From a bacterium (GTDB lineage: Bacteria > Chloroflexota > Dormibacteria > Dormibacterales > Dormibacteraceae), in the NCBI GenBank assembly GCA_004299235.1, contig SCQL01000064.1, forward strand, positions 1 through 44,690: a stretch of DNA of 44,690 bases. The letters are read 5' to 3'. How positions within the stretch are numbered: the stretch's first letter is position 1; each line of letters begins with the position of its first letter. Shown piece by piece: positions 5,635 to 43,449 of this stretch. A model generated the notes under the pieces. It did no database searches. It saw only the letters and a program-made list of their open reading frames with translations, and was not told the origin of the DNA. The translations under genes and the position numbers were made by a program.

Positions 5635-6057
5635 TCAGGCCTTTATGTCGAGGATCGAGGCGTAGGCGTCTTTTGCGTGCGACATGACCTGGGCGTTGGC
5701 CTGATATGAAATTTGAGCCTGAATGAGATCGGTCATCTCGCTTCCAAGGTCGACAACCGGATATGCGACCTCGCCGCTAGCGTTAGCAAGCGGATTAGTC
5801 GGCTCGTACTTGTTCTGCCCGCTTGCCGGGCCAAGTTCGATGGCATTCACCTGCACACCAGCTCCGGCTCCGGTCCCATCCGGGATGCCCGGCAGAACCC
5901 GCTCGCCAACATTGACGTACTCAGCCTGGTAGACGGGCTGGCCCGGGGTGACACCATCATTCATATTGGCGATATTGCTTCCTATGGTGTCGATCCATGT
6001 CTGGTCGACCTCCGACCCGGTTCCAGCGACATCGACTGCGCTCCAAATTGAACTCAA
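5635..6057 (-). CDS. flgC: FlgC, proximal rod protein
   Basis: This 140-aa rod protein has the N-terminal helix with IGSNIANMNDGVTPGQPVYQAEYV, a variant of the usual SNNIANANT motif, and the C-terminal helix QAQISYQANAQVMSHAKDAYASILDIKA that packs in the rod core. The N-terminal motif is more divergent than normal (SVDVAGTGSEVDQTW replaces the usual first helix), but length and the C-terminus are typical. It sits eight bases after flgB and two before fliE. Confidence 0.95.
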   Translation of the reverse strand: MSSIWSAVDVAGTGSEVDQTWIDTIGSNIANMNDGVTPGQPVYQAEYVNVGERVLPGIPDGTGAGAGVQVNAIELGPASGQNKYEPTNPLANASGEVAYPVVDLGSEMTDLIQAQISYQANAQVMSHAKDAYASILDIKA

Positions 6058-6065
6058 AGTACCTC

Positions 6066-6404
6066 CTAAGCGGTTATGGCATCCGAAAGGATGCTGAACT
6101 GCCCGCTGAGGGCATTGTCCAGTGTGCGGTTCATGAGATTGTTGTCCATCATCAAGGTTGTTTCGGCAGGTATGGAGACATTGTTGCCATTGGTCCCCGA
6201 AGCCAGATTCTCTGGGATGGTCTCCACGCTGGCCGTACCACCCGTTTGCAATGCCTGGGCCAGCGCGGATTCGAAACTTACCTGGTCGGCCTGATAATTG
6301 GGGGTGTTGACGTTGGAGATGTTGTTGGCGATGGCCTGCTGCTGATCGACGACGGCATTGAGGGCGAACTGCAAAATTCCGATGGACTCGGTAACATCAG
6401 CCAC
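6066..6404 (-). CDS. flgB: FlgB, proximal rod protein
   Basis: This 112-aa rod subunit contains VVDQQQAIANNISNVNTPNYQADQVSFESAL, a canonical rod/hook N-terminal signature, and a C-terminal helix ending NALSGQFSILSDAITA. It is the first gene of the flgB-to-fliJ operon. The start is a GTG at 6404 with CAGGAG about seven bases upstream. A motif-type promoter lies roughly 80 bases upstream, and a small hairpin lies in the leader. Confidence 0.96.
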   Translation of the reverse strand: MADVTESIGILQFALNAVVDQQQAIANNISNVNTPNYQADQVSFESALAQALQTGGTASVETIPENLASGTNGNNVSIPAETTLMMDNNLMNRTLDNALSGQFSILSDAITA

Positions 6405-6456
6405 GGCAATACTCCTGAGCGTGAAATAGGGGTAATAGCCGTCGTGGCCCGATGTC

Positions 6457-6471
6457 GAGCGTTCCTTGCTC
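6457..6471 (-). promoter_or_regulatory. Candidate CsrA-binding hairpin in the flgB leader
   Basis: On the mRNA strand the sequence GAGC-AAGGAAC-GCTC forms a 4-bp stem with AAGGA in the loop, starting 11 bases after the flgB promoter -10 element. GGA exposed in a hairpin loop is the known CsrA recognition feature. The ten bases GAGCAAGGAA recur at the same distance from the flagellin promoter. Binding itself is inferred. Confidence 0.5.
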
Positions 6472-6482
6472 TCACTGGTATC

Positions 6483-6509
6483 TACGGCCCAACCGCGTCA
6501 GGAATTGAG
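6483..6509 (-). promoter_or_regulatory. Flagellar sigma-type promoter of flgB operon
   Basis: Read on the minus strand: CTCAA, 14 bases, GGGCCGTA. The same two boxes with the same 14-base spacer precede five other flagellar units in this window. It resembles the sigma-28 class (E. coli 8-N11-8 architecture; CTCA...GCCG in actinobacterial FliA promoters, from memory). It would start the flgB-flgC-fliE-fliF-fliG-fliH-fliI-fliJ transcript with a leader of about 70 bases. Confidence 0.85.
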
Positions 6510-6573
6510 AGGCTGGGGGAAATTTATAGCTGAGGCTGAAAATGCAGCTTCCGGCAGCACCGAATGCGCCAAA

Positions 6574-6861
6574 TCAAAGAGCGGTGTCCACGTATGCCGG
6601 CGGCCGCTGCTCCTGGTGGGGGCTTCGCCATGTAGGAGACAGGCGCCGTTCGATTGCCGACATCCGGGCAGCTACGTCCGCCGCCAGCTGGTCATAGCCA
6701 GTGGCGAGCTGGCGTGCGGTGTCGATGCAGCTATCGGGAATGGGTTCACTTGGCCGGTTAGGAGGCGATGGGGGAGTTGCACCTGTCTCAGCTGCTTGGC
6801 GCGCCGCCGCAAGATGCATCGAGGCTTCAGCCAAATACTCATCCCAGGTTGGATCCGGCAT
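6574..6861 (-). CDS. Small hypothetical protein downstream of fliS
   Basis: A 95-aa protein starts at ATG 6861 with GAGGGG six to seven bases upstream. The frame is open to 6879, but that earlier Met has no comparable site. The first 23 bases overlap the fliS end, so it is co-transcribed with fliD-fliS. The sequence MPDPTWDEYLAEASMHLAAARQAAE is helical, with a Pro-rich middle and a second helical segment (GYDQLAADVAARMSAIERRLS). Position and helical make-up recall the small FliT-type chaperone that often follows fliS, but no FliT motif is recognisable. Function unknown. From its stop to the flgB promoter there is no further gene. Confidence 0.7.
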   Translation of the reverse strand: MPDPTWDEYLAEASMHLAAARQAAETGATPPSPPNRPSEPIPDSCIDTARQLATGYDQLAADVAARMSAIERRLSPTWRSPHQEQRPPAYVDTAL

Positions 6862-7240
6862 TGTTCCCCTCGTTTGCACTCACGGCGGCGCGCCACGCAT
6901 CGTGAATCGGCTGAAACAGTTCGGCGCACTGTCTAACCCGCTCGACATTTTTTTCCAAATTCGCTTCGATGAGCTGGCGCTCCAAAAATGCGTAGACCGC
7001 CATCAATTCGTGGCCTCCTGTGAATCCGTCGGGATTGAGCGCGCTGCGGAGCATTCTAAGGATGCTCTGGGCATGTTGAAGATTCTCGTTTCCCGCCTCA
7101 TAGTCCGCCGCCTCGATAGCGGCTTCTCCTCTGGCGAGGTCAGCTGCCAGCCGGTCGCAGAGCATTAGCAGGAGCTGGGGTCCGTTGGCGGTCTGCACGG
7201 CCTGGTTGTGGTAAGCGGAGGCAGGATTGATGTAAGGCAT
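6839..7240 (-). CDS. fliS: FliS, flagellin export chaperone
   Basis: This 133-aa four-helix protein binds the C-terminal helix of flagellin, prevents early polymerisation and brings it to the export gate. Typical features are the opening MPYINPASAYHNQAVQTANGPQLLLMLCDRL (YxxxxVxTAxPxxLLxMLYDxxI pattern), the central ANENLQHAQSIL-like helix (here GNENLQHAQSILRMLRSALN) and the Tyr/Phe-rich ELMAVYAFLERQLIEANLEKN helix. In firmicutes FliS also assists the FliW-CsrA loop by controlling free flagellin. It lies eight bases after fliD. Confidence 0.95.
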   Translation of the reverse strand: MPYINPASAYHNQAVQTANGPQLLLMLCDRLAADLARGEAAIEAADYEAGNENLQHAQSILRMLRSALNPDGFTGGHELMAVYAFLERQLIEANLEKNVERVRQCAELFQPIHDAWRAAVSANEGNNAGSNLG

Positions 7241-7248
7241 GGAATCTC

Positions 7249-9768
7249 TTAGCCTCCCATAGTTGTCGAGCCGCCCGACAGAAGGGACGACGACGAGGAT
7301 GACGATGACGATGAGGACTGGGAGAGAAACTTGCTCTCCGAGGAGAGCTGGGCAAGGAGCTCCTCCATATGGGTGAACTCCTGCGTGAGCAGCGCGCGCT
7401 GGTTGCTCACAAGCTGCTGCTGCAGAGAGATTTCACTCGTCACATTGGACAGGGTGGAGTTCAGGCCTGTTATGGTCTCCGATATTTGTCCGCCGGGAGT
7501 GACGGTGGCCTGCTCGGCAAGGTTGGCCAATCCCTGGGCAAGGCCGGGAGCGTAATTGACGGATCCAAGCGGCGTCGCTGTGGTGATTCCAGGCGTGGTG
7601 ATCTGGAGAGTCAGGCCGTCCGCCGCATTGCCGGGATCTGCCAGGGTCAGGGTCTGGCCAATTCCGGAAGCAGCCACCCCGTTTATCGTCCCTGCGACAT
7701 CGGTGCCTGAGAACGTGGTGCCTGCTGCTGTCAGGCCAAGCTGGTCGCTGCCCGAGGCGCTGACACTGAAACTGGCTGCGGATCCGTAATTTGCCGAACC
7801 CAACTGCACGTTGTAAGCGCCTGAGGTGCCCGCCAGTGAGGCTGAGACTGCAATGCCGGCCGCAGCCATCGCACCGTTGATGCCTGTTATCACGTTGGCG
7901 ATGCTCTCACCGGCGGTGGCCGCATATGTGGCAGTGCCTGAGCCCGAGGTAACCGTGTAGCTTTCGGCAGAGGCCAATGTCGCGGCCGACGAGGCGAACG
8001 CCGCAGTGCCGGTGTCGATCGCCTGGGAGGCAGAACGGCTGATCGAGACGCCATAGCTGCCTGGCATGGTGCTATTGCTGGCTCCAGCCACGCTTACCTG
8101 GCCGGAGTAGGTGGAGCTCGAAGGAGAGAAGGTGCCTCCCTCGGTGAACATGGCCTGCACTGCGGCTGGGTTGGCGTCGTAGGCAGTTACGAAAGCGTTC
8201 TGGTTGAATGTGATCGTTCCCGAAGAGGTGATTGCCAGCCCGGCGGATTCCCCGGCGGTGCCGTCAGATCCGGCGGTTGAGGATCCTATTGCATTCCCCA
8301 CAATTGCAAGCACCTGCTGCGCAAGGGTGTTCAGCGATGTCTGGCCGTTGAGAGGCCCGGCGGTATTGGTCGACTGGTTGTATGCCGTATCCGTTGCGAT
8401 GTCGGAGAGGATTTTGTTCGCCGCGTCCACCAAGGACGATACCTGGCTTGCCACCTGGGATCCGTCAGCGGAGACATTGAGCGTTACAGGTGCTGTGGAG
8501 ACCTGGCTCAGGTGCACCGTCACTCCGGGAAGCAGGCCAGTCACGTCATTTGTTGCGGAGCTGACCTGGTAGCCGCCGACGCCGCCAATCGACACGACGG
8601 CGTTCTGGGCAGCTGTCGTTGTTTGCATCGCGCCAAGCGACGAAGCAGAAAATGCCTGGGTATCGATGGTTGCCGCCCCCGCGGTTCCCGTTTTCATCGA
8701 GTTTACTTCGAGTGCATACTGGTTTGCGCCCACCTGAAGAGCGGTAGCCGTGACTCCAGCGTTGGCTCCATTGATCGCATTCACGACTGAGGAGAGTGAA
8801 CCGTCACCGACCGAGACGTTCTGGGCGGTCATGGTACCAACGCTCAAGCCGCCGGAGATGTTTGCTGTTATCGATCCGCCAGTGCCCGATGCAAGGGTAA
8901 CGGAGGTGGTTCCGGTGCCGGCGATATTGTTTACGGTGGTGTTTGTGCCGTCGACATTGATGATCCCGTCGGTCCCGTAAACGACTGAGCCGGTGGAGAG
9001 CCCCAGAGTGCCCAGTGCCGTGCCCCCGGTGATTTGAAGCGATGCGGCCGATCCCTGCTGCGCGGTGGCAATTGAGAGCAGCCCGCTCGAGTTGACCGAA
9101 GCATTCAGCGTTCCGCCTGAAGCCTGGGTGATTGCCTGGGCCAATTGAGCCTGGGTGTAGGTTCCAGTCGGGATGACGACGGCCAGTGCGCTCCCATCCA
9201 CATTGAGGTTTATCTGGTTGTTGGTCGAAGTGATCGAGGTGCTCGATGCCAGTGGAGTGGCTCCCGTGACGCTTGCACCGGCCGAGGCCTGGGTGACGCT
9301 GATTGTGTGGGCTCCGGCGGCAAGGCCCGAGGTGCCGCTGAAGGATGAAATTCCGATCGCAAGGCCACCGGAACCGACCAGATAGTTGCCCGAGGCCACT
9401 ACGTCGTTGGTTGCCGATACCGTGCCGGCAGAGATTTGAGTGGATCCGGTAGCCAGCTGGTCTACCGCAAGGGTGATGGATCCGGCACTTGTTCCTCCGG
9501 TGACCGTTCCGGTGGCGGTTGTGGAATTTGACGAGCTGACCGAATAGGCCTCGTTATAGGCGGCCGGATTTGCAAGCGCGTCACCAGCCTGCTGCAGGCT
9601 CAGAAGGTCGGAATTCAGTGCCTGGTAGTCCGAAATCTGGGTGTTCAGCTGGCTCTGCTGGGATTGCAGCGACATCAGTGGTTGTTCGAAAATCGCCAGC
9701 TCGGCATTGATTATCTGACTCGTGTTGAGGCCTGATTCCAGTCCGCCAAAACTGATAGGTGCTGTCAT
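7249..9768 (-). CDS. fliD: FliD, filament cap protein (hook-associated protein 2), unusually long
   Basis: This 839-aa protein begins MTAPISFGGLESGLNTSQII, the standard FliD N-terminus. The ATG is at 9768; the frame is open to 9831, but the upstream residues do not resemble FliD. The N-terminal coiled coil (LMSLQSQQSQLNTQISDYQALNSDLLSLQ) and C-terminal coiled coil (ISLQQQLVSNQRALLTQEFTHMEELLAQL) flank a very long Ser/Thr/Ala/Gly-rich middle with several flagellin-hook-like segments (TYTQAQLAQAITQASGG). It ends in a run of about eleven serines followed by LLSGGSTTMGG. FliD is often 400-500 aa, so the exposed middle is enlarged. It caps the filament and controls flagellin insertion. fliS follows. 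No motif-type promoter was seen directly upstream. Confidence 0.95.
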   Translation of the reverse strand: MTAPISFGGLESGLNTSQIINAELAIFEQPLMSLQSQQSQLNTQISDYQALNSDLLSLQQAGDALANPAAYNEAYSVSSSNSTTATGTVTGGTSAGSITLAVDQLATGSTQISAGTVSATNDVVASGNYLVGSGGLAIGISSFSGTSGLAAGAHTISVTQASAGASVTGATPLASSTSITSTNNQINLNVDGSALAVVIPTGTYTQAQLAQAITQASGGTLNASVNSSGLLSIATAQQGSAASLQITGGTALGTLGLSTGSVVYGTDGIINVDGTNTTVNNIAGTGTTSVTLASGTGGSITANISGGLSVGTMTAQNVSVGDGSLSSVVNAINGANAGVTATALQVGANQYALEVNSMKTGTAGAATIDTQAFSASSLGAMQTTTAAQNAVVSIGGVGGYQVSSATNDVTGLLPGVTVHLSQVSTAPVTLNVSADGSQVASQVSSLVDAANKILSDIATDTAYNQSTNTAGPLNGQTSLNTLAQQVLAIVGNAIGSSTAGSDGTAGESAGLAITSSGTITFNQNAFVTAYDANPAAVQAMFTEGGTFSPSSSTYSGQVSVAGASNSTMPGSYGVSISRSASQAIDTGTAAFASSAATLASAESYTVTSGSGTATYAATAGESIANVITGINGAMAAAGIAVSASLAGTSGAYNVQLGSANYGSAASFSVSASGSDQLGLTAAGTTFSGTDVAGTINGVAASGIGQTLTLADPGNAADGLTLQITTPGITTATPLGSVNYAPGLAQGLANLAEQATVTPGGQISETITGLNSTLSNVTSEISLQQQLVSNQRALLTQEFTHMEELLAQLSSESKFLSQSSSSSSSSSSSLLSGGSTTMGG

Positions 9769-10868: not shown

Positions 10869-13800
10869 TTAGTTCTTGGCCGCTTTGTGCGAATCGGTCC
10901 GCTGTGGCTCGTGCACATTGCCGTAGCGCCGGCGCTCGATGGCTGCAAGCCGTTCCTTCATTGCCCGGGCCGAGCGTGCAGGGGAGAATTGCCTGAGATA
11001 GCGTTCCCTGGCTCTTTGCGCCTTCATCAGCGCCAACTTGGGCTGCCCAGCGACGAGCCGCATGGCCTTGGCCGCTTCCGTTAGGCTTGGCTCGGCCCAG
11101 CGCCCCTGAGACGAGCTGCGGTATAGGAGATCCGGGATCGCCTTTAGCACGAAGGGAACCTGGAAGCTGTCGCGCTCGCTCTGAAGTTCGGCACTGAACG
11201 AATGGCCCGTAACGATAGTTGGCACCCCTGCAGTCATTGCCCGGCCAATAGCCAAGCCGGTCCCTTCGCTTCGATGAAGCGAGACGAAGCACGATCTGGC
11301 CGCTGCCCGGTCATTGAGGATGTGGCCAAGTCCCTTGTGATAGTCATTTACGAGTTCGATGTCGCTCCTCTTTGATGCAGCGGCGACCAGCCTTGCGTGT
11401 TCCGCCGGAAAGCGCTCCGCATGAGTTGTCTCAATGAGGAGTTTTGGCCCCTCACCGGGCTGGAACGCGCCAGAGAAGGCCTCCACTGCGCCAAGGGGGT
11501 TCTGCCGCTCGAATCCTTCCGCGTAGTCGACGCTGGCGACAAAGGTGAAACCGGTCTCGCTGGCGTCGTCCCCCTCCTGGCGCCACTCGGTCGTGATCGG
11601 GAGCAACATCCTTAGGACCGGCCGGCTTGTCGCCCGGGTAACGCTAGCGGCGGAAAATGCCGAAGGCACCCAGATTTCATGAACGATCGACGAGGCCGTG
11701 CTCATAGTCTGAGGCGGCCTTTCAAAGTCGCAGCGCCACACGCCGATCATGTAGCGGGCTTCGAAGCAAGCAGCACCGTGGTCGAAGACGAAGTTGGTCA
11801 AATCCTGGGGGGAGAGCACGAGCAGCGTGGTGTCGAAGGGATGGTCTCCCTCGTCATGGTGAGTCCACTCCAGCAGGCCCGGCTGTCCGTCCGAATGATA
11901 GGAGGTGGTCGACACCGACATGCCGTGGCTGCCCAGCGTGTTGGCAAGGGCACGTGCTATGTCGCCTTCGACAGAGGTGCTCTCAAACGCGCCAACGATA
12001 TTGATGCCTCCGCGCCGGGTCACAGCCGCCACCCTCTGGGGCGGCAACGAAGTTGATCCTCTTCGCCCGCGTTCGATGGGAACGGAGCCAACCGGAGCAA
12101 TTTCCACATTCGCTACAACCGGGTCGGCGTGGCTGGCTTCGAGCAGCCCGGGAGCAATCCGGCTGACCTCCTCGGTCGATTGGGCCAATGCCTCGGGATC
12201 AAGCAGGCTCCGCGCCTGGTGCAAGGCATTGATGACACTATGGTCTGCGAAACTGCCAAATGCCGCAGCCGCCGCGAGGATGCGCACCCGGGGATCGAGC
12301 TGTTCGTTGTTGGCCATTGCCACCAACGGGCACGCTGCCGGCAGGCCGCGGTTGCGCAGCCTTGAAGACCACACCAGAGCTCTGGCCACAGGCAGGCGCG
12401 GACCAAGGCGTCCTGCCGCAGCAAGCGGCTCCAGACGATCCGGAAACTTCTGCCAGATGGCTTCGAGCACTGAATCAGCCACCGCCGCCGGCTGGCGAAG
12501 CAGCCGTCCGAGCACCCCCATGAGGTCGTCCACCTCAAGTGCGTCGGCAATCTCTGACGGAGACCGGTGCGCTTTGATCAGCCAGAAAACGAGCTCTCCG
12601 AGATCTGCCTCCAGCAGTCCCTGAGCGCGCACTGCGTCAAGAACGACGTCAGCGGCCTCTGCGAACCGGCCGAGAGAAGCAAGTGCTTCGCCGCGTATGG
12701 AGGCGAGCGTATGCGCGGTATATTCCATGCCGTCATCGTCGCGCCCCCGCGACGGAACGCGCGCCAGCATAGACAGGCCTGCTGCAACGTCGCCCATGGA
12801 GATCCTTATCGAGCCCTCAGCGATGTCCGCGGCAATCTGGCTGACCGATGTCCGGCGCAACTCCTCCACCTGGTCGAGGGCCTCATCGAAGCGTGAAAGG
12901 CGGCCAAGGATATAGACCAGGTTATTAATGGCCATCCGCCGCGTAATTGGCTCCTCGGCAATTGAGGCTGCCTCCTTCAACACCTCAACCGCCTCAGTGC
13001 TCTGTCCGGCCACGTCCAGAGCGCGGCCGTAGTTCATTAGCGCATATGGCTTGTTGAGGACCTCGTCTTCTACGGCTTGCCGGGCGAGAGCGAGATTGCG
13101 TTCGGCCTTGTTCTTCGACTGGAGCACCTCGGCAACATAGCCATAGTGGATTATTCTCGATCCGCTAAGGTAGCCGAGCCTGAGAGGGCGGCTTGGGTCG
13201 TCGGCCGCGACCACCTGCTCGTGAAGCCGATAGAGCCATGTGCACGAAGTCCTTCGGAACAGCCGTATAGCGGTATGCACCGAGCGGGCATTGCCCAGCC
13301 CATGAAGATTCTCTATTGCCACCAGGTACGCTTCCAAGTTGGAACGCCGGTCGGAGAGGGTGGCCCGCAGCATCTCCGGATCGGCCAAGAGGTGCTCATC
13401 GGCGTCCAGCGAGAGAATCCATTCACCACTCGCCTGTTCCAGCGCCGCATTGCGGGCCCGGGCAAAGGAGTCGTCCCAATACCCCTCTATGACCCGCGCG
13501 CCAGCCGCCTTTGCAATTTCCACCGTATTGTCGCTCGATCCGGTGTCGTAAACGACGATCTCATCGGCAATATCGGCAATTGAGTCGAGGCATGACTGAA
13601 GCATCTGCTCTTCGTCCTTGACAATCAGGCACACTGAAAGCAGGCAGAGCGGGGGAACCGAATCTATGCCCCACTTGGTCACGAACAGTTCCTGATTGCA
13701 CACCTGGTGCTGCCACTTGATTCCGTTGAAGTCAAAGGTTGCGTGCCCCGCGTGATGTACGAATGAGCCGTGCGCGACCACGAGGCGAAGGCCTGCTCCG

Positions 13801-14402
13801 CGAAGTTTCATGCACAGGTCGTCGTCCTCGAATCCGCCGATGCCGTACGCCTCGTCGAAACCGCCGATCCGGGTGAAGACTTCAGAGCGGATTGCGAGGC
13901 AGAAACCGACAAGACGCGCACAGTCGCTGGTCTGCCCGGCGTGGGCCCTTTTCCAGGCCTGCGCAAATTCCCCGATAGCGGCGGCACCTTCACCCTGGTA
14001 AGGGATGTCTTGGATTATCTGATGTCCTGAGACGCTGTTCGATCTCGGACCGACCGCACCGACTGTGGGATCCGCAAAAGGGAGGAGCAGTTCCTCGAGC
14101 CATCCGTCGAAAACCAGGGTGTCGTTGTTCAAAAATACCAGGGCTTGGCCCCTGGCTGCTGCTGCGCCCTGATTGCAGCCTGCGCCGAAGCCGCAATTGG
14201 CTTCGTTTGAGACTACATCGACCCATGAATAATTCCGAAGTTCAAAGCCCGTGGCATCAGTCGAGCCATTGTCGACCACCACCACTTGGTCTCCAGGTGC
14301 GAGTGTTGATTGAAGAGACTCGAGGCAGTCACGCGTGCGGTCCCATGCGTTCCAGACGGGAATTACAACTGTCGCGGCAAGGCGCTGGCTCTGAGGGCTC
14401 AC
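10869..14402 (-). CDS. Multi-domain glycosyltransferase (GT2-GT2-TPR-GT4-like), probable flagellin glycosyltransferase
   Basis: This 1,177-aa protein has four parts. Residues 10-245 are a GT-A glycosyltransferase (TVVIPVWNAW, VVVDNGST at 41-48, FLNNDT at 90-95, GGFEDDDL at 189-196). Residues 254-430 are a second GT2 domain (LLSVCLIVKDEE, DTGSSDNT, catalytic DAD at 333-335). A helical TPR-like region covers about 430-620. The C-terminal part resembles GT-B family 4 enzymes (SEGTGLAIGRAMTAGVPTIV from about 1045). It lies directly upstream of flagellin and has its own flagellar promoter, which strongly suggests that it builds a glycan on flagellin or another filament protein. The GTG start is only nine bases after the promoter -10 box, with no Shine-Dalgarno, so its mRNA may be leaderless. 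Sugars and acceptor are unknown. Confidence 0.85.
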   Translation of the reverse strand: MSPQSQRLAATVVIPVWNAWDRTRDCLESLQSTLAPGDQVVVVDNGSTDATGFELRNYSWVDVVSNEANCGFGAGCNQGAAAARGQALVFLNNDTLVFDGWLEELLLPFADPTVGAVGPRSNSVSGHQIIQDIPYQGEGAAAIGEFAQAWKRAHAGQTSDCARLVGFCLAIRSEVFTRIGGFDEAYGIGGFEDDDLCMKLRGAGLRLVVAHGSFVHHAGHATFDFNGIKWQHQVCNQELFVTKWGIDSVPPLCLLSVCLIVKDEEQMLQSCLDSIADIADEIVVYDTGSSDNTVEIAKAAGARVIEGYWDDSFARARNAALEQASGEWILSLDADEHLLADPEMLRATLSDRRSNLEAYLVAIENLHGLGNARSVHTAIRLFRRTSCTWLYRLHEQVVAADDPSRPLRLGYLSGSRIIHYGYVAEVLQSKNKAERNLALARQAVEDEVLNKPYALMNYGRALDVAGQSTEAVEVLKEAASIAEEPITRRMAINNLVYILGRLSRFDEALDQVEELRRTSVSQIAADIAEGSIRISMGDVAAGLSMLARVPSRGRDDDGMEYTAHTLASIRGEALASLGRFAEAADVVLDAVRAQGLLEADLGELVFWLIKAHRSPSEIADALEVDDLMGVLGRLLRQPAAVADSVLEAIWQKFPDRLEPLAAAGRLGPRLPVARALVWSSRLRNRGLPAACPLVAMANNEQLDPRVRILAAAAAFGSFADHSVINALHQARSLLDPEALAQSTEEVSRIAPGLLEASHADPVVANVEIAPVGSVPIERGRRGSTSLPPQRVAAVTRRGGINIVGAFESTSVEGDIARALANTLGSHGMSVSTTSYHSDGQPGLLEWTHHDEGDHPFDTTLLVLSPQDLTNFVFDHGAACFEARYMIGVWRCDFERPPQTMSTASSIVHEIWVPSAFSAASVTRATSRPVLRMLLPITTEWRQEGDDASETGFTFVASVDYAEGFERQNPLGAVEAFSGAFQPGEGPKLLIETTHAERFPAEHARLVAAASKRSDIELVNDYHKGLGHILNDRAAARSCFVSLHRSEGTGLAIGRAMTAGVPTIVTGHSFSAELQSERDSFQVPFVLKAIPDLLYRSSSQGRWAEPSLTEAAKAMRLVAGQPKLALMKAQRARERYLRQFSPARSARAMKERLAAIERRRYGNVHEPQRTDSHKAAKN

Positions 14403-38891: not shown

Positions 38892-39350
38892 TCAGTTGGT
38901 TGCCTCATTGCGCTGATAGCTGCCGACAGGAGAGCGCAGACCTACGGCAAAACGATTCCAGCCATTGATTGCTACGACCGCTAGTGTCAAAGCGACTATC
39001 TCCTCCGGGCTGAAGACATTTTCCAATTCTTTGTAGATCTCGTCTGGTGCGTCTGAGTTCGGCAGCAGCGTGAGCGTCTCGCACCAGGCCAGTCCAGCGC
39101 GTTCCCTGGGCGAATACATCGGCGCTTCTTTCCATGCCGCAACAAGATGAAGCCGTTGCGGACTCATTCCTATTGCGCTGGCATCTTTCGTGTGCATATC
39201 GAGGCAATAGCCGCAGCCGTTCAGCTGGGAAGCGCGAATCTTTACAAGCTCAAGAAGTTCTGCCTCTAGAGTGCTGGCATGGACCGCATCTTCCAGCCCC
39301 CTCATCGCCTGCAATGCCTCAGGATAGATTTTCCGGTAGTCCACTCGCAT
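38892..39350 (-). CDS. AhpD/carboxymuconolactone decarboxylase family protein
   Basis: This 152-aa protein of the alkylhydroperoxidase group has the redox motif NGCGYCLDMHTKDA (Cys 46, Cys 49, His 52). Further family features are LVKIRASQLNGC before it and the C-terminal VALTLAVVAINGWNRFAVGLR. Members reduce peroxides through the CxxC pair or serve in small-molecule redox reactions. The ATG at 39350 follows GGACCGGAAG. It lies downstream of the NADH dehydrogenase on the same strand, with a 327-base gap containing a direct repeat, so it probably has its own promoter. Confidence 0.92.
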   Translation of the reverse strand: MRVDYRKIYPEALQAMRGLEDAVHASTLEAELLELVKIRASQLNGCGYCLDMHTKDASAIGMSPQRLHLVAAWKEAPMYSPRERAGLAWCETLTLLPNSDAPDEIYKELENVFSPEEIVALTLAVVAINGWNRFAVGLRSPVGSYQRNEATN

Positions 39351-39677: not shown

Positions 39678-41036
39678 CTACTGGTGATCAGGTTTTAGGT
39701 GAGGACAGTCAGGACATTGGACCTCTGGCGCACCTGGTTTGTATCCAATGTCGCCAACAATCAAGCGCGGTCCTGAAGGCCACTTGAAATACCTCCAAAC
39801 CCAGTTGATGAGGACGGCGATCCGATTGCGAAAGCCAATCAGATATACCAGGTGCAACGCCAGCCAAGCCAGCCAGCCCAGAGTGCCGCTAATCACTAGT
39901 CCATGTTTTAGCTGGGCCACAGCTGCTCTGCGGCCAACCGTTGCCATCACCCCGCGTTCGCGGTAAACAAACTCTTCAGTTCGTTGTCCATTGATCCGAT
40001 TGAGAATCTGCAGTGCCGCGTGATCGCCAGATTGGATCGCAACCTGAGCCACTTGCGGATACAAGGTGGCGGCGCCATGGGACCTAGTTGCATTTCCGGA
40101 ATGAACGTTATTTTCAGATGGCCGGATTGCTGCGGCGTCACCGACAATGAAAACTTCTGGATGGCCAGGAACCGTGAGATCAGATTCGACCTGGATCCGC
40201 CCGCCGGGTCCATGGAGCTGCTCAGGCAAAGTCGAGGCAAGGGTACCATCCACAGTGATGCCCGCTACCCAGATAACGACCGATGCGCTTATTACCTGCC
40301 CGTCGACCAGAGTCACATCGGTTGGGGATACAGATGCAACCTGGGCATTGAGACGGATATCGACACCGCGGGAGGACAGAGCCTTTTCGGCATAGGTGCC
40401 TGCATGCGCAGAAAAGCTCGGCAACAAGCGGTCGCGTCCTTCAATGAGGACTACCCGGGTGCGAAGTGGATCCAGGCGAAGGCGGTCATGACGCATGGTG
40501 ATGTCGATGAGTTCAGACAGGGCACCAGCAGTTTCGACTCCCGTGGGACCGCCGCCGACTACCACAAATACTGCGGCACCGCCGGCCCCGTTTGGATCGT
40601 TGTCGGCACGCTCCAGCGCGGCAAGAACTTTGTTGCGAACCCAGCGGGCGTCGTCAAGAGTGTAAAGGGGAAGAGCATGTTGCCGCACTCCCGGAATCCC
40701 GAGGAAGGACGCGGTTGCTCCAGTGGCAATGATGAGGTGGTCGTATTGGAGGGCTGCTCCGTCTTCGAGGATGACACTTCGTCGGCCAAAGTCGATGTTC
40801 GACACTAGGCCGTGTATGAAGCGGATATTGCTCCTCCTGCGCAGGATTGTGCGGATGGGGTATGCCACATCCGCAGTATCGAGGCCGGCAGTTGCCACCT
40901 GATAAAGGAGCGGCTGGAAGGTATGAAAATTGTGGCGATCGATGAGACGAATGTCAAGGGGTGCTTCTCGAAGCCGTTTTGCCGCCGCCAAGCCGCCAAA
41001 CCCTCCACCAACTATCAAAACTCGCTCCAATGACAC
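39678..41036 (-). CDS. ndh: Type II NADH:quinone oxidoreductase
   Basis: This 452-aa single-subunit NADH dehydrogenase passes electrons to quinone without pumping protons. The FAD fold is VLIVGGGFGGLAAAKRL at 6-22 and the NADH fold is FVVVGGGPTGVETAGAL near 160. EVFIVGDAAAI contacts FAD, and AQVAIQ matches the AQxAxQ quinone-site motif. The C-terminus has a hydrophobic amphipathic region (LGWLAWLALHLVYLIGFRNR) for membrane attachment. A CPDC pair close to the end is unusual. It starts 113 bases after the small CMD gene and is probably co-transcribed with it. Confidence 0.95.
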   Translation of the reverse strand: MSLERVLIVGGGFGGLAAAKRLREAPLDIRLIDRHNFHTFQPLLYQVATAGLDTADVAYPIRTILRRRSNIRFIHGLVSNIDFGRRSVILEDGAALQYDHLIIATGATASFLGIPGVRQHALPLYTLDDARWVRNKVLAALERADNDPNGAGGAAVFVVVGGGPTGVETAGALSELIDITMRHDRLRLDPLRTRVVLIEGRDRLLPSFSAHAGTYAEKALSSRGVDIRLNAQVASVSPTDVTLVDGQVISASVVIWVAGITVDGTLASTLPEQLHGPGGRIQVESDLTVPGHPEVFIVGDAAAIRPSENNVHSGNATRSHGAATLYPQVAQVAIQSGDHAALQILNRINGQRTEEFVYRERGVMATVGRRAAVAQLKHGLVISGTLGWLAWLALHLVYLIGFRNRIAVLINWVWRYFKWPSGPRLIVGDIGYKPGAPEVQCPDCPHLKPDHQ

Positions 41037-41149: not shown

Positions 41150-41500
41150 CTAATGTTCAATTTTGTCAAGAGTGTGAAGCGCGATCGTTGAATGGGCAAA
41201 GGCACCTCCGGCCCGCATTTCCGCTGCCACCCAGATTGCCTCCATTATTTCTTGGTCGGTCGCGCCTTTTCGCTGGGCTAGCTTTGTGTGGCCCGCTATG
41301 CAATAGGGGCACTGTGTTACGTGGGCCACTGCCACTGCGATAAGTTGTTTTGTTTTTTCCGGAAGAGCGCCTTGGCTGAAAACGGCACGGCTAAAGGTTT
41401 CAAATGCCTCGTGAATTTCGGGCGCAAGTTCTTTGCGGCGCTTTCCAATCTCCGCGGTAGCGGGGGGATATACGCTGTTGTCATCGGTCAATGTTGTCAC
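41150..41500 (-). CDS. Carboxymuconolactone decarboxylase-like (AhpD fold) protein
   Basis: This 116-aa protein begins with GTG at 41500; AAGGAG eight to nine bases upstream selects it over the frame's first codon at 41659. The core is LPEKTKQLIAVAVAHVTQCPYCIAGHTKLAQRKGATDQEIMEAIWVAAEMRAGGAFAHS, with the redox pair Cys 64/Cys 67 and His 71. Short CMD proteins form trimers or hexamers and handle peroxides. Standing before the NADH dehydrogenase, it may protect against peroxide made by that flavoenzyme. Confidence 0.92.
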   Translation of the reverse strand: MTTLTDDNSVYPPATAEIGKRRKELAPEIHEAFETFSRAVFSQGALPEKTKQLIAVAVAHVTQCPYCIAGHTKLAQRKGATDQEIMEAIWVAAEMRAGGAFAHSTIALHTLDKIEH

Positions 41501-42105
41501 TGTCTCTCCTTGGTGCATACTTGCCAGATAATTTAAAGAACTGGTGGACTTGGATTTCCGGAGCCACAGCCAGGAAACTGTAATGGTAAGAACGAGTTTT
41601 ACCACTGATGAGGTCTGGCTGGACAAAACCGCAAAGTTCAAAACACGCGGAAAAGGCAAAGGATTGCCGAAACGCCTCAGGCGAATTTGCAGCGATCATG
41701 CGCCTCGTACTGCTTGGAATTAACGCTTTCGCCATCTGCCGTACCCTCTCAATTGTGTTGGGAGTCGCTGAAGGGCTTCATTGCACCGCGTGTGTTTCAT
41801 TTATTCTATTCCAGACTAGAGATATGCGATGCCTAAGCTTAAGCAGGATTCTCTCTGTCATGCTGAGATGGAGCGCAATGCCCTTTTGAACCATTAAAAG
41901 TTATTTCAGCGTTTCTTTTGACATCGGTGTATCGATGGTCTTTGGAAACATGCCCAAGACGTCTTTACGGGGGACTGTTTTTTGGACTCAGTTCCCGAGC
42001 GTGTGAGGCATCTCGTGGAGCGCCGTTCACCTGGCTGCTGATGCTAAATTGCGCGTAGTGGTGATAGATTCGTAATGGAAATCTAGCGGATTTGAGCGTG
42101 ATCAT
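41501..42105. other. Divergent intergenic region between CMD gene and the small operon
   Basis: About 600 bases without a supported gene. A TTGACA box is at 41918-41923 on the plus strand without a matching -10. The right end leads into the GTG start of the 82-aa gene. Promoters for both directions must lie here, but I cannot place them. Confidence 0.4.
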
Positions 42106-42354
42106 GTGAAAGGTTTACTGAGAGCACGCAGCACGGACGGATCTCTGCTTTGCCCGGTCTGCGCTAGCCCGGCGCAAGATCTATATGTCCTGGCATCCCA
42201 TCTGGTGGAGAAAGCAGAAGCCAGCGACGGCGCCCACGTGATGTGGCTAAACCGCAACTTGACCAAGCACCGCAAATCCATTGAGGAAATTGAGCGGCTG
42301 CTGGTCAGCCTGCTGGCCGAAGAGAGGCCATCCGACGAGGTGGTGAAACGATGA
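42106..42354 (+). CDS. 82-aa CxxC/His zinc-finger-like protein
   Basis: It starts with GTG 42106; the ribosome site is weak (GAG). The sequence has CPVC at residues 16-19, histidines at 32, 44 and 55, and a charged C-terminal helix (KSIEEIERLLVSLLAEE). Spacing recalls a zinc-binding finger, but no named family is recognised. The stop overlaps the ATG of the next gene (ATGA at 42351-42354), so the two are translated together. It is the first gene of the three-gene operon with a di-metal oxidase-like protein and the TGA-interrupted protein, suggesting a joint role in metal or thiol chemistry. Confidence 0.75.
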   Translation: MKGLLRARSTDGSLLCPVCASPAQDLYVLASHLVEKAEASDGAHVMWLNRNLTKHRKSIEEIERLLVSLLAEERPSDEVVKR

Positions 42355-43103
42355 ATCAATCTATGGCATCCAGGGTTGAAAAGGCGGTAATCGAGGGATG
42401 GTTTCTTGATCCGCCGCCGCTGATAGCTGCGATGGCAAACGGGCCCACAATCGGCGTAACGAGGGCTTTTGTGCTTCAGTGGACCAAATTCTCGCGGCTG
42501 TTTCCACGCTGGGTGGGGTCAATAATGTCGAACTGTCCTGAGTTTGCGGTGCTGGCCTACGAGGTGGAAAACCTAATGTCCGAGGTTGTCCGCGATCCTG
42601 AAAGCGATGGCAACCACTACCAGCTCTTGACCCGCCTAGGAGAAAGTGTCGGTCTTAGCCAAAATGAGATCGAGACTTACCCGGAGCTTCCACAGTCATC
42701 TGATCTCTTTGAATGGTTGTGGAGGAAAGCGCGCAACCCCGATTGGCTCATCGGCTTCGCTGCTGTTAATGGCCTGGAGATTTTGGGAGACCGGAACCTC
42801 CCTTTGAAATATGGTGTTCAGTCGGGCACCGGACTTAACCCTGAACCCTATGCCGATATCCTCGGACTTGAAGAGGAGAATCTTGAGTTCTTCAGGGTCA
42901 GCGATCAGGCCGATGCGGGTCACGGGCATGAAACCGTCGAAATCCTTGCGCGCTATACCCCGGCTGGGCGCGAAGACGAGATCCTGGCGGTGCTAAAAGA
43001 GGCTATGGATCAGCTGAGGCTAATGATGAACGCCCTGTGGGAATTGGCTACAGTGATAGACGCCGGACTGAATTCCAAAGCGAGGGCTGATGGCGAAGGG
43101 TGA
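42351..43103 (+). CDS. Heme-oxygenase-like di-metal protein (TenA/PqqC/CADD fold)
   Basis: This 250-aa helical protein resembles iron-containing redox enzymes of the heme-oxygenase-like fold. YEVENLMSEVV near 70-80 provides the first glutamate, GNHYQLLTRLGESVGL at 87-102 the first histidine (H89), GLEILGDR a glutamate (E143), and FFRVSDQADAGHGHE the last helix. That helix normally reads H-x3-D-x2-H; here Ser 184 stands for the first His, while Asp 188 and His 191 remain (His 193 nearby). Related enzymes cleave or oxidise amino acids, fatty acids or peptides. It overlaps genes on both sides, so its substrate may be a neighbouring small protein; that is inference. Confidence 0.75.
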   Translation: MNQSMASRVEKAVIEGWFLDPPPLIAAMANGPTIGVTRAFVLQWTKFSRLFPRWVGSIMSNCPEFAVLAYEVENLMSEVVRDPESDGNHYQLLTRLGESVGLSQNEIETYPELPQSSDLFEWLWRKARNPDWLIGFAAVNGLEILGDRNLPLKYGVQSGTGLNPEPYADILGLEEENLEFFRVSDQADAGHGHETVEILARYTPAGREDEILAVLKEAMDQLRLMMNALWELATVIDAGLNSKARADGEG

Positions 43104-43392
43104 CCCTTGTGATCTGTGTGGATCCACCTGGGGGGATGTTGACCAGGAAATTGGCGGCCGCAGGTATCATTTCTGCTGAGACCTTTGAGCCGCCGCGTTC
43201 GCCAATTTGGTTGCAGCCATTGAGGGGCAACTGGGTGAAGGCGTTGTCGTCCGGTCGGACGACGTAGACGGAAATGACGTAACGGGCCTGGCTTGGCTTG
43301 CCACTGATAGCGAGTCCAAGTACAGCTATGCGGCGGTCTTCAATGACGATGGGACACTTGTCAGCTGCATCATTGGAGAGTTGAGTGGCTGA
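43090..43392 (+). CDS. Putative UGA-recoded small metal-binding protein (two internal TGA codons)
   Basis: The frame opens at ATG 43090 inside the end of the previous gene. It reads MAKGDPCDLCGSTWGDVDQE IGGRRYHFC, then TGA (43177), Asp-Leu, TGA (43186), AAAFANLVAAIEG, and continues without interruption to TGA 43390: 100 residues if both internal stops are read. The pattern C-x2-C...Y-H-F-C-[C]-x2-[C]-x3-F is that of TRASH/YHS-like treble-clef zinc sites, and both TGAs fall on the expected cysteines. The part after the stops (about 67 residues) looks protein-like. Reading TGA as selenocysteine or cysteine explains this best. A pseudogene or a 29-residue peptide are the alternatives. The family may be Ta0938-like (from memory, unverified). 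Confidence 0.65.
43200..43243 (+). other. SECIS-like hairpin after the TGA pair
   Basis: Hand folding gives CGCC (43200-43203) with GGCG (43240-43243), then ATTTGGTTGC (43205-43214) with GCAACTGGGT (43227-43236), four pairs of which are G-U. A 12-base loop AGCCATTGAGGG can close two further C-G pairs. The apical part lies about 26-38 bases after the second TGA, within the usual range for bacterial SECIS elements. Sequence rules for these are loose, so this is supportive only. Confidence 0.35.
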
Positions 43393-43449
43393 TCCAGCCT
43401 GTTGTTCTGCTTCAGTATTGGCGAGAATGCCCAGTGAGAGGGGAATCAT

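Follow-up and report, generated by a model that had tools for sequence, protein, structure and literature searches.

A zinc finger–heme-oxygenase-like oxidase–Ta0938 gene cassette in which the third gene is predicted to encode a multi-selenocysteine protein

The window, i.e. the whole stretch of 44,690 nucleotides that was analysed, carries on its forward strand three genes which overlap one another. Gene 1 (42106..42354, GTG start at 42106) encodes an 82-residue zinc finger protein (PF16293, zf-C2H2_9) with a CPVC motif followed by two His residues and a conserved HVMWLNR. Gene 2 (42351..43103, ATG start at 42351) codes for a heme-oxygenase-like dimetal oxidase (HDO) of 250 residues (PF14518, Haem_oxygenas_2); its start overlaps the stop of gene 1 in the ATGA at 42351. 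Gene 3 (43090..43392) begins with the ATG at 43090 within gene 2 and specifies a 100-residue protein of the Ta0938 family (PF11494), with a CxxC and a later F-C-U-x-x-U. All Pfam assignments were above the curated cut-offs (E-values 9e-16, 2e-13 and 3e-17 for PF16293, PF14518 and PF11494, respectively). Gene 1 scored 58 bits against a cut-off of 29; gene 3, with TGA read through, scored 63.2 bits against 27, and NCBIfam holds no family for it. At the end of gene 3 a pattern scan found a weak terminator-like stem (43387..43399, forward strand). Because 1.9 such stems are expected by chance and one was found, it is no evidence by itself. The original prediction, made from the DNA alone, had described a three-gene overlapping cassette of a CxxC/His protein, a di-metal oxidase-fold enzyme and a recoded Cys-rich protein. 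Its coordinates and overlaps were confirmed, and the enzyme class is supported by the PF14518 match and the predicted heme-oxygenase-like fold. The CxxC/His protein is indeed a CxxC...H...H zinc finger; in most archaea, however, it makes up the N-terminal region of the enzyme and is not a free metal carrier.

Is the cassette a fixed unit, as had been proposed? A scan of GTDB contigs with a Ta0938 alignment yielded 21 loci. The HDO gene was directly upstream of Ta0938 in all 21 and the order zinc finger, HDO, Ta0938 was kept in 20. A second search in 292 Thermoplasmatota genomes gave 21 matches above the Pfam cut-off, one of them a locus already in the first set (L026). Again an HDO gene was upstream in each, in two cases without a zinc finger. 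Thus, all Ta0938 genes detected above the family cut-off lie directly behind an HDO gene, in Actinomycetota as well as in several archaeal phyla. These counts start from Ta0938 genes, not from HDO genes, and the carriers are for the most part metagenome-assembled genomes. Zinc finger and HDO share one reading frame of about 300 residues in most archaea, whereas in Actinomycetota they are two genes. The refutation set beforehand, i.e. that the genes be found apart in other genomes, failed, and we consider it very likely that the three genes form a functional three-part unit. Three loci of a Thermoplasmatota lineage (L035, L091, L092) have an HDO and a Ta0938 gene (FCCDACARFY) with no detectable zinc finger, and their HDOs have some motifs in common with the actinobacterial enzymes (FPRWVGSI). 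In two further loci (L028 and L029, about 5968-7470) the Ta0938 gene is extended at its C-terminal end by a long low-complexity region; the reading frame of L029 comprises 500 residues.

The cassette is rare in Actinomycetota. When 150 relatives and a sample of 400 genomes of the phylum were searched, Ta0938 turned up in the window's own genome alone; in the class of another carrier 2 of 198 genomes had it. A search of plasmid records for Ta0938 gave no match. Among archaea, Sulfolobus acidocaldarius has a Ta0938 match in its genome. In the flanking genes of the loci no other neighbour was conserved beside the cassette, and flanking genes were therefore dismissed as a functional clue. An aconitase gene lies 3' of the cassette in two actinobacterial loci and 6 kb upstream of it in the window, probably a matter of shared local gene order.

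The closest solved fold for gene 2 is SSO2700 of Sulfolobus solfataricus (PDB 4lqx, annotated as a TENA/THI-4 domain), which combines genes 1 and 2 in one chain: its residues 19-74 match gene 1 and residues 88-293 match gene 2. Thus, what is fused in SSO2700 is split in the window. A literature search found neither a paper on SSO2700 nor a function. The profile match of gene 2 to 4lqx had an E-value of 1e-129, that to CADD, the self-sacrificing p-aminobenzoate synthase of Chlamydia, 6e-13. The AlphaFold2 model (mean pLDDT 94) was nearest to 4lqx (Z 27.4), then to CADD (Z 22.8), PqqC and HrmI. It meets the seven-helix heme-oxygenase-like fold criterion of the HDO superfamily, but not that of a full ligand set of three His and three carboxylates. 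In the alignment E78, H89, E143, D188 and H191 are candidate metal ligands. They correspond to E81, H88, E142, D178 and H181 of CADD, residues which we take to be its metal ligands; the positions are from the alignment. CADD H174 is replaced by Ser184 in gene 2 and by Gly in most archaea. With one canonical His ligand missing, the metal site may be unusual. E71, seven residues ahead of E78, is conserved in 26 of 27 sequences and could, as far as conservation can suggest it, substitute for the missing ligand. In spite of the common fold and five of six metal ligands, p-aminobenzoate synthesis of the CADD type was rejected because the key Tyr141, which adjoins the metal-site Glu, is not conserved (Leu142 in gene 2). 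The region of K152 is variable, and gene 2 reached 42 bits with NCBIfam TIGR04305 (CADD), for which the cut-off is 200. Unlike CADD, the HDO of gene 2 has a Cys/Sec partner.

Gene 3 is homologous to TA0938 of Thermoplasma acidophilum (PDB 2fqh). Both have a CxxCG-TWGD motif followed by the FCCDxC region, and in archaea, too, the family is paired with an HDO. Only five Cys are invariant in the alignment of the family, at positions 7, 10, 29, 30 and 33. Where TA0938 reads FCCDIC, the window has FC-TGA-DL-TGA. The two in-frame UGA codons (43177..43179 and 43186..43188, forward strand) are at positions 30 and 33, which are Cys in every archaeal relative. With TGA as Sec the protein begins MAKGDPCDLCGSTWGDVDQEIGGRRYHFCUDLUAAAF. 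The recoding suggested for the third gene thus falls on positions at which relatives invariably have Cys. UGA codons replace Cys in seven actinobacterial genes altogether, those of the window and of L016, L017, L018, L019, L020 and L043, and the F-C-C-x-x-C cluster is encoded in either of two ways. L016 and L019 have FC-U-xL-U, as in the window, whereas four of the seven genomes (L017, L018, L020, L043) have a third UGA at position 29, F-U-U-xL-U. C7 and C10 are never UGA. No UGA was found in archaeal Ta0938 copies, which have Cys only. The sole hit with internal stops (L093) was below the cut-off, lacked an HDO and was not counted. In a tree of the HDOs the seven enzymes from Actinomycetota group in a single clade, in which L043 branches deepest. 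By parsimony, the three-Sec form as ancestor needs fewer changes, with Sec29 reverting twice to Cys; this is an inference from a tree that is midpoint-rooted and has some weak branches.

The UGAs could in principle be stops, so that gene 3 would be broken or only a 29-residue peptide would be made. That the terminal stop of gene 3 is also UGA agrees with this. Yet the same UGAs are present in seven genomes, exclusively on Cys codons, and what follows is not a decaying frame. In codons 34-70 the differences at codon positions 1, 2 and 3 numbered 159, 185 and 367. On both sides of the UGAs substitutions are mostly in the third codon position and dN/dS is below 1, a pattern which, as far as sequence comparison can establish it, marks the coding sequence behind the UGAs as under in-frame selection. 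Together with the conserved hairpin described below this makes termination scarcely credible. Might another tRNA read the UGAs as Cys or Trp? The archaeal relatives do have Cys at these positions. In the window's genome, however, the UCA anticodon was present only on tRNA-Sec; the 45 other tRNA genes included no special tRNA reading UGA as Cys or Trp, the only tRNA-Cys had the anticodon GCA and an ordinary tRNA-Trp (CCA) was present. A SECIS-like hairpin would likewise be out of place in such a decoding. The draft genome being 97% complete, a tRNA may conceivably have been missed; this reading, too, remains highly improbable.

The machinery for selenocysteine is present. In the window's genome adjoining genes encode SelA (492 bits) and SelB (353 bits); a tRNA-Sec with anticodon UCA is present, as are SelD with a UGA in GUACK and FdhA with a UGA in UHAPS. 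SelA was above the cut-off in four of five other actinobacterial carriers tested and in none of seven archaeal carriers. In G459, the metagenome-assembled genome of L020, SelA was not found, and its selD and fdhA both contain a UGA. In the genome of L018 some 11 kb separate selA-selB from the cassette, both being on one contig (L049, G457:C60:50000-69999), a hint of a possible joint transfer of selenocysteine machinery and selenocysteine gene. We conclude that gene 3 very probably encodes a selenoprotein; the conclusion is computational and has no selenium labelling or mass spectrometry data behind it. The window's genome has another formate-dehydrogenase-like gene (L067, G000:C31, 23831-24601) with an in-frame TGA (RVUHGP) and hence probably at least four selenoprotein genes.

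Downstream of the UGAs is a SECIS-like hairpin, GUCGUCC-GGUC-GGACGAC (43246..43263, forward strand). Its GGUC loop (43253-43256) follows the last UGA at a distance of 64 nt. The hairpin is present in all seven genes, the loop always at 64 nt. The stem is GUCAUCC/GGAUGAU in L020 and lacks the outermost pair in L017. Six genes form a 7-bp stem of -13.2 to -16.0 kcal/mol; pairs and loop are present in the seventh as well. Over the seven genes 48 of 49 pairs are formed, a number that none of 20,000 synonymous shuffles attained (mean 36.4). Fourteen of 18 hairpin columns are identical, with a shuffle maximum of 11. In these shuffles amino acids were fixed and codons redrawn, and phylogeny was ignored. 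The codons for Arg55 (CGG) and Ser56 (TCG) are the same in 7/7 genes and are the sole invariant six-fold codons. In a scan of every possible 6-bp helix the GGUC helix ranked first (Z 5.68, against 5.08 for the best of 600 null sets). A covariance model scored the seven genes at 95-113 bits and archaeal copies never above 16 bits, which is not significant. Covariation itself is thin, with one double change in seven sequences. Because these are too few, covariation was rejected as proof, and the evidence for the hairpin is synonymous-site constraint instead. Rfam had nothing near its cut-off in the hairpin region.

How can a hairpin at this distance act? The bacterial SECIS model places the loop 16-37 nt after the Sec UGA, although some elements do not fit it; it further demands a stem of 4-16 bp and an MFE of at most -7.5 kcal/mol (PMC13188914). 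The GGUC hairpin meets the stem and energy criteria, but with 64 nt in 7/7 genes not the spacing. Canonical elements do occur in the same genomes: in the FdhA genes of five carriers, including the window's genome, the GGUC loop is 18 nt after the UGA, and in SelD of two carriers it is at 32 nt. The gene 3 hairpin has in common with them a GGUC loop atop a G+C-rich stem; it differs from FdhA in distance, in a second hairpin in between, and in presumably serving two or three UGAs. This second, spacer hairpin (43192..43245, forward strand) has the core UUCGCC/GGUGAA (43198-43203 and 43234-43239). Of 42 possible core pairs 40 are formed in the seven genes against 31.9 expected (Z 4.5), and when folded from just past the last UGA its ensemble probability was 0.76-1.0 in 7/7. 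It may fold away most of the 64-nt gap, which is inferred and untested. With the 42-nt core folded out, 22, 31 and 34 nt would remain to the three UGA positions, all within 16-37 nt, so that one SECIS could serve all of them. SelB with Sec-tRNA would bind the GGUC hairpin. However, when the first nine bases are opened by the ribosome another local hairpin often forms instead, and the form of the spacer during decoding is uncertain. On balance we lean, without much assurance, towards one distant SECIS serving all UGAs.

An inventory of prokaryotic selenoproteins from May 2026, with 119 families and subfamilies, contains neither PF11494 nor an HDO-associated selenoprotein (PMC13188914). Its UxxU selenoproteins (the NF041115 metal-binding protein, an FmdB-like and a Prx-like UxxU protein) likewise have two Sec two residues apart, but in domains other than Ta0938, and there is no UUxxU entry. 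In its sole three-Sec entry, an arsenite methyltransferase/AhpD domain selenoprotein, the UxxG and CxxU motifs are separate (PMC13188914). Thus, gene 3 very probably represents a selenoprotein family not described before, in which as many as three Sec are clustered and the SECIS is atypical. Standard gene calling stops at the first UGA and would miss it. Two or three Sec within five residues would allow one to study how several UGAs can be served by a single SECIS and at what distance from the codon it may lie, and the Cys form of archaea and the Sec form of bacteria are a natural pair for finding out what selenium adds.

What does the protein do? The AlphaFold2 model of gene 3 had a mean pLDDT of 89. 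Foldseek gave no significant match with the Ta0938 model. In a second structure comparison the best Z, 6.6, was too low to be meaningful, and the matches listed did not include 2fqh. Sec is predicted exactly at positions 29, 30 and 33 while Cys is kept at 7 and 10. From this we infer that the site is more probably a reactive one (redox or soft-metal) than a zinc site of merely structural purpose. C7/C10, U30/U33 and residue 29 (C or U) may together make up a single site of this reactive kind, its role being untested. The HDO would use O2 at its dimetal centre on an unknown substrate, with the Sec protein tentatively reducing or metallating it. None of the HDOs studied to date requires a protein effector (PMC13108848), and an obligatory partner would therefore be new for them; the cassette gives HDOs an apparently constant small partner. 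We are confident of the explanation as a whole, namely of a zinc finger-HDO with a dedicated Ta0938 partner, which in the actinobacterial lineage would have become a multi-selenocysteine protein. That gene 3 is the redox or electron-donor partner of the HDO is inferred, and is a working hypothesis rather than an expectation. The most far-reaching version, in which a single SECIS, located 64 nt 3' of the last UGA and beyond a spacer hairpin, directs up to three Sec into five residues (UUxxU), giving a tri-selenol/dithiol redox or metal centre that serves an O2-activating HDO, would be the first Sec partner of the HDO class and a new SECIS architecture; we rate its chances as not quite even.

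The original prediction had offered metal delivery, modification of the small Cys/Sec protein and handling of a reactive compound as possible functions, a choice that the present results narrow rather than settle. Two other roles were weighed. Gene 3 might be a TRASH-like soft-metal chaperone or sensor, or a carrier that loads the HDO, in which Sec raises metal affinity and no electrons are donated. Weak similarity to the TRASH and YHS metal-trafficking domains is in line with this, as is the restriction of invariant Cys to positions 7, 10, 29, 30 and 33, and a metal-binding UxxU selenoprotein is on record (PMC13188914). But no conserved metal transporter, regulator or resistance gene adjoins the cassette, and the constant pairing with an O2-activating enzyme is left unexplained, so that we regard a pure metal role as rather unlikely. 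Still less likely is that the gene 3 product is itself the substrate, its Cys/Sec cluster being oxidised or rearranged by the HDO, with a modified peptide or protein-bound cofactor as the result. Such a relation would suit the constant pairing and the translational overlap; amino acids are among the substrates of HDOs, and CADD uses up side chains of its own. Ta0938, however, is a folded 100-residue domain in which no leader-like region was seen, and genes for maturation, export or proteolysis are not conserved in its neighbourhood. The redox partnership with the HDO remains our preferred, if tentative, reading.

Some other genes of the window may be mentioned. Next to the cassette two carboxymuconolactone decarboxylase/AhpD-like proteins are encoded (38892-39350 and 41150-41659; CGYC and CPYC), and between their genes an NDH-2-like oxidoreductase is on the opposite strand (39678-41036). 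In the flagellar cluster a very large glycosyltransferase-like protein (10869-14402, 1177 residues, recognised by eye only) is encoded beside flagellin; possibly it glycosylates flagellin.
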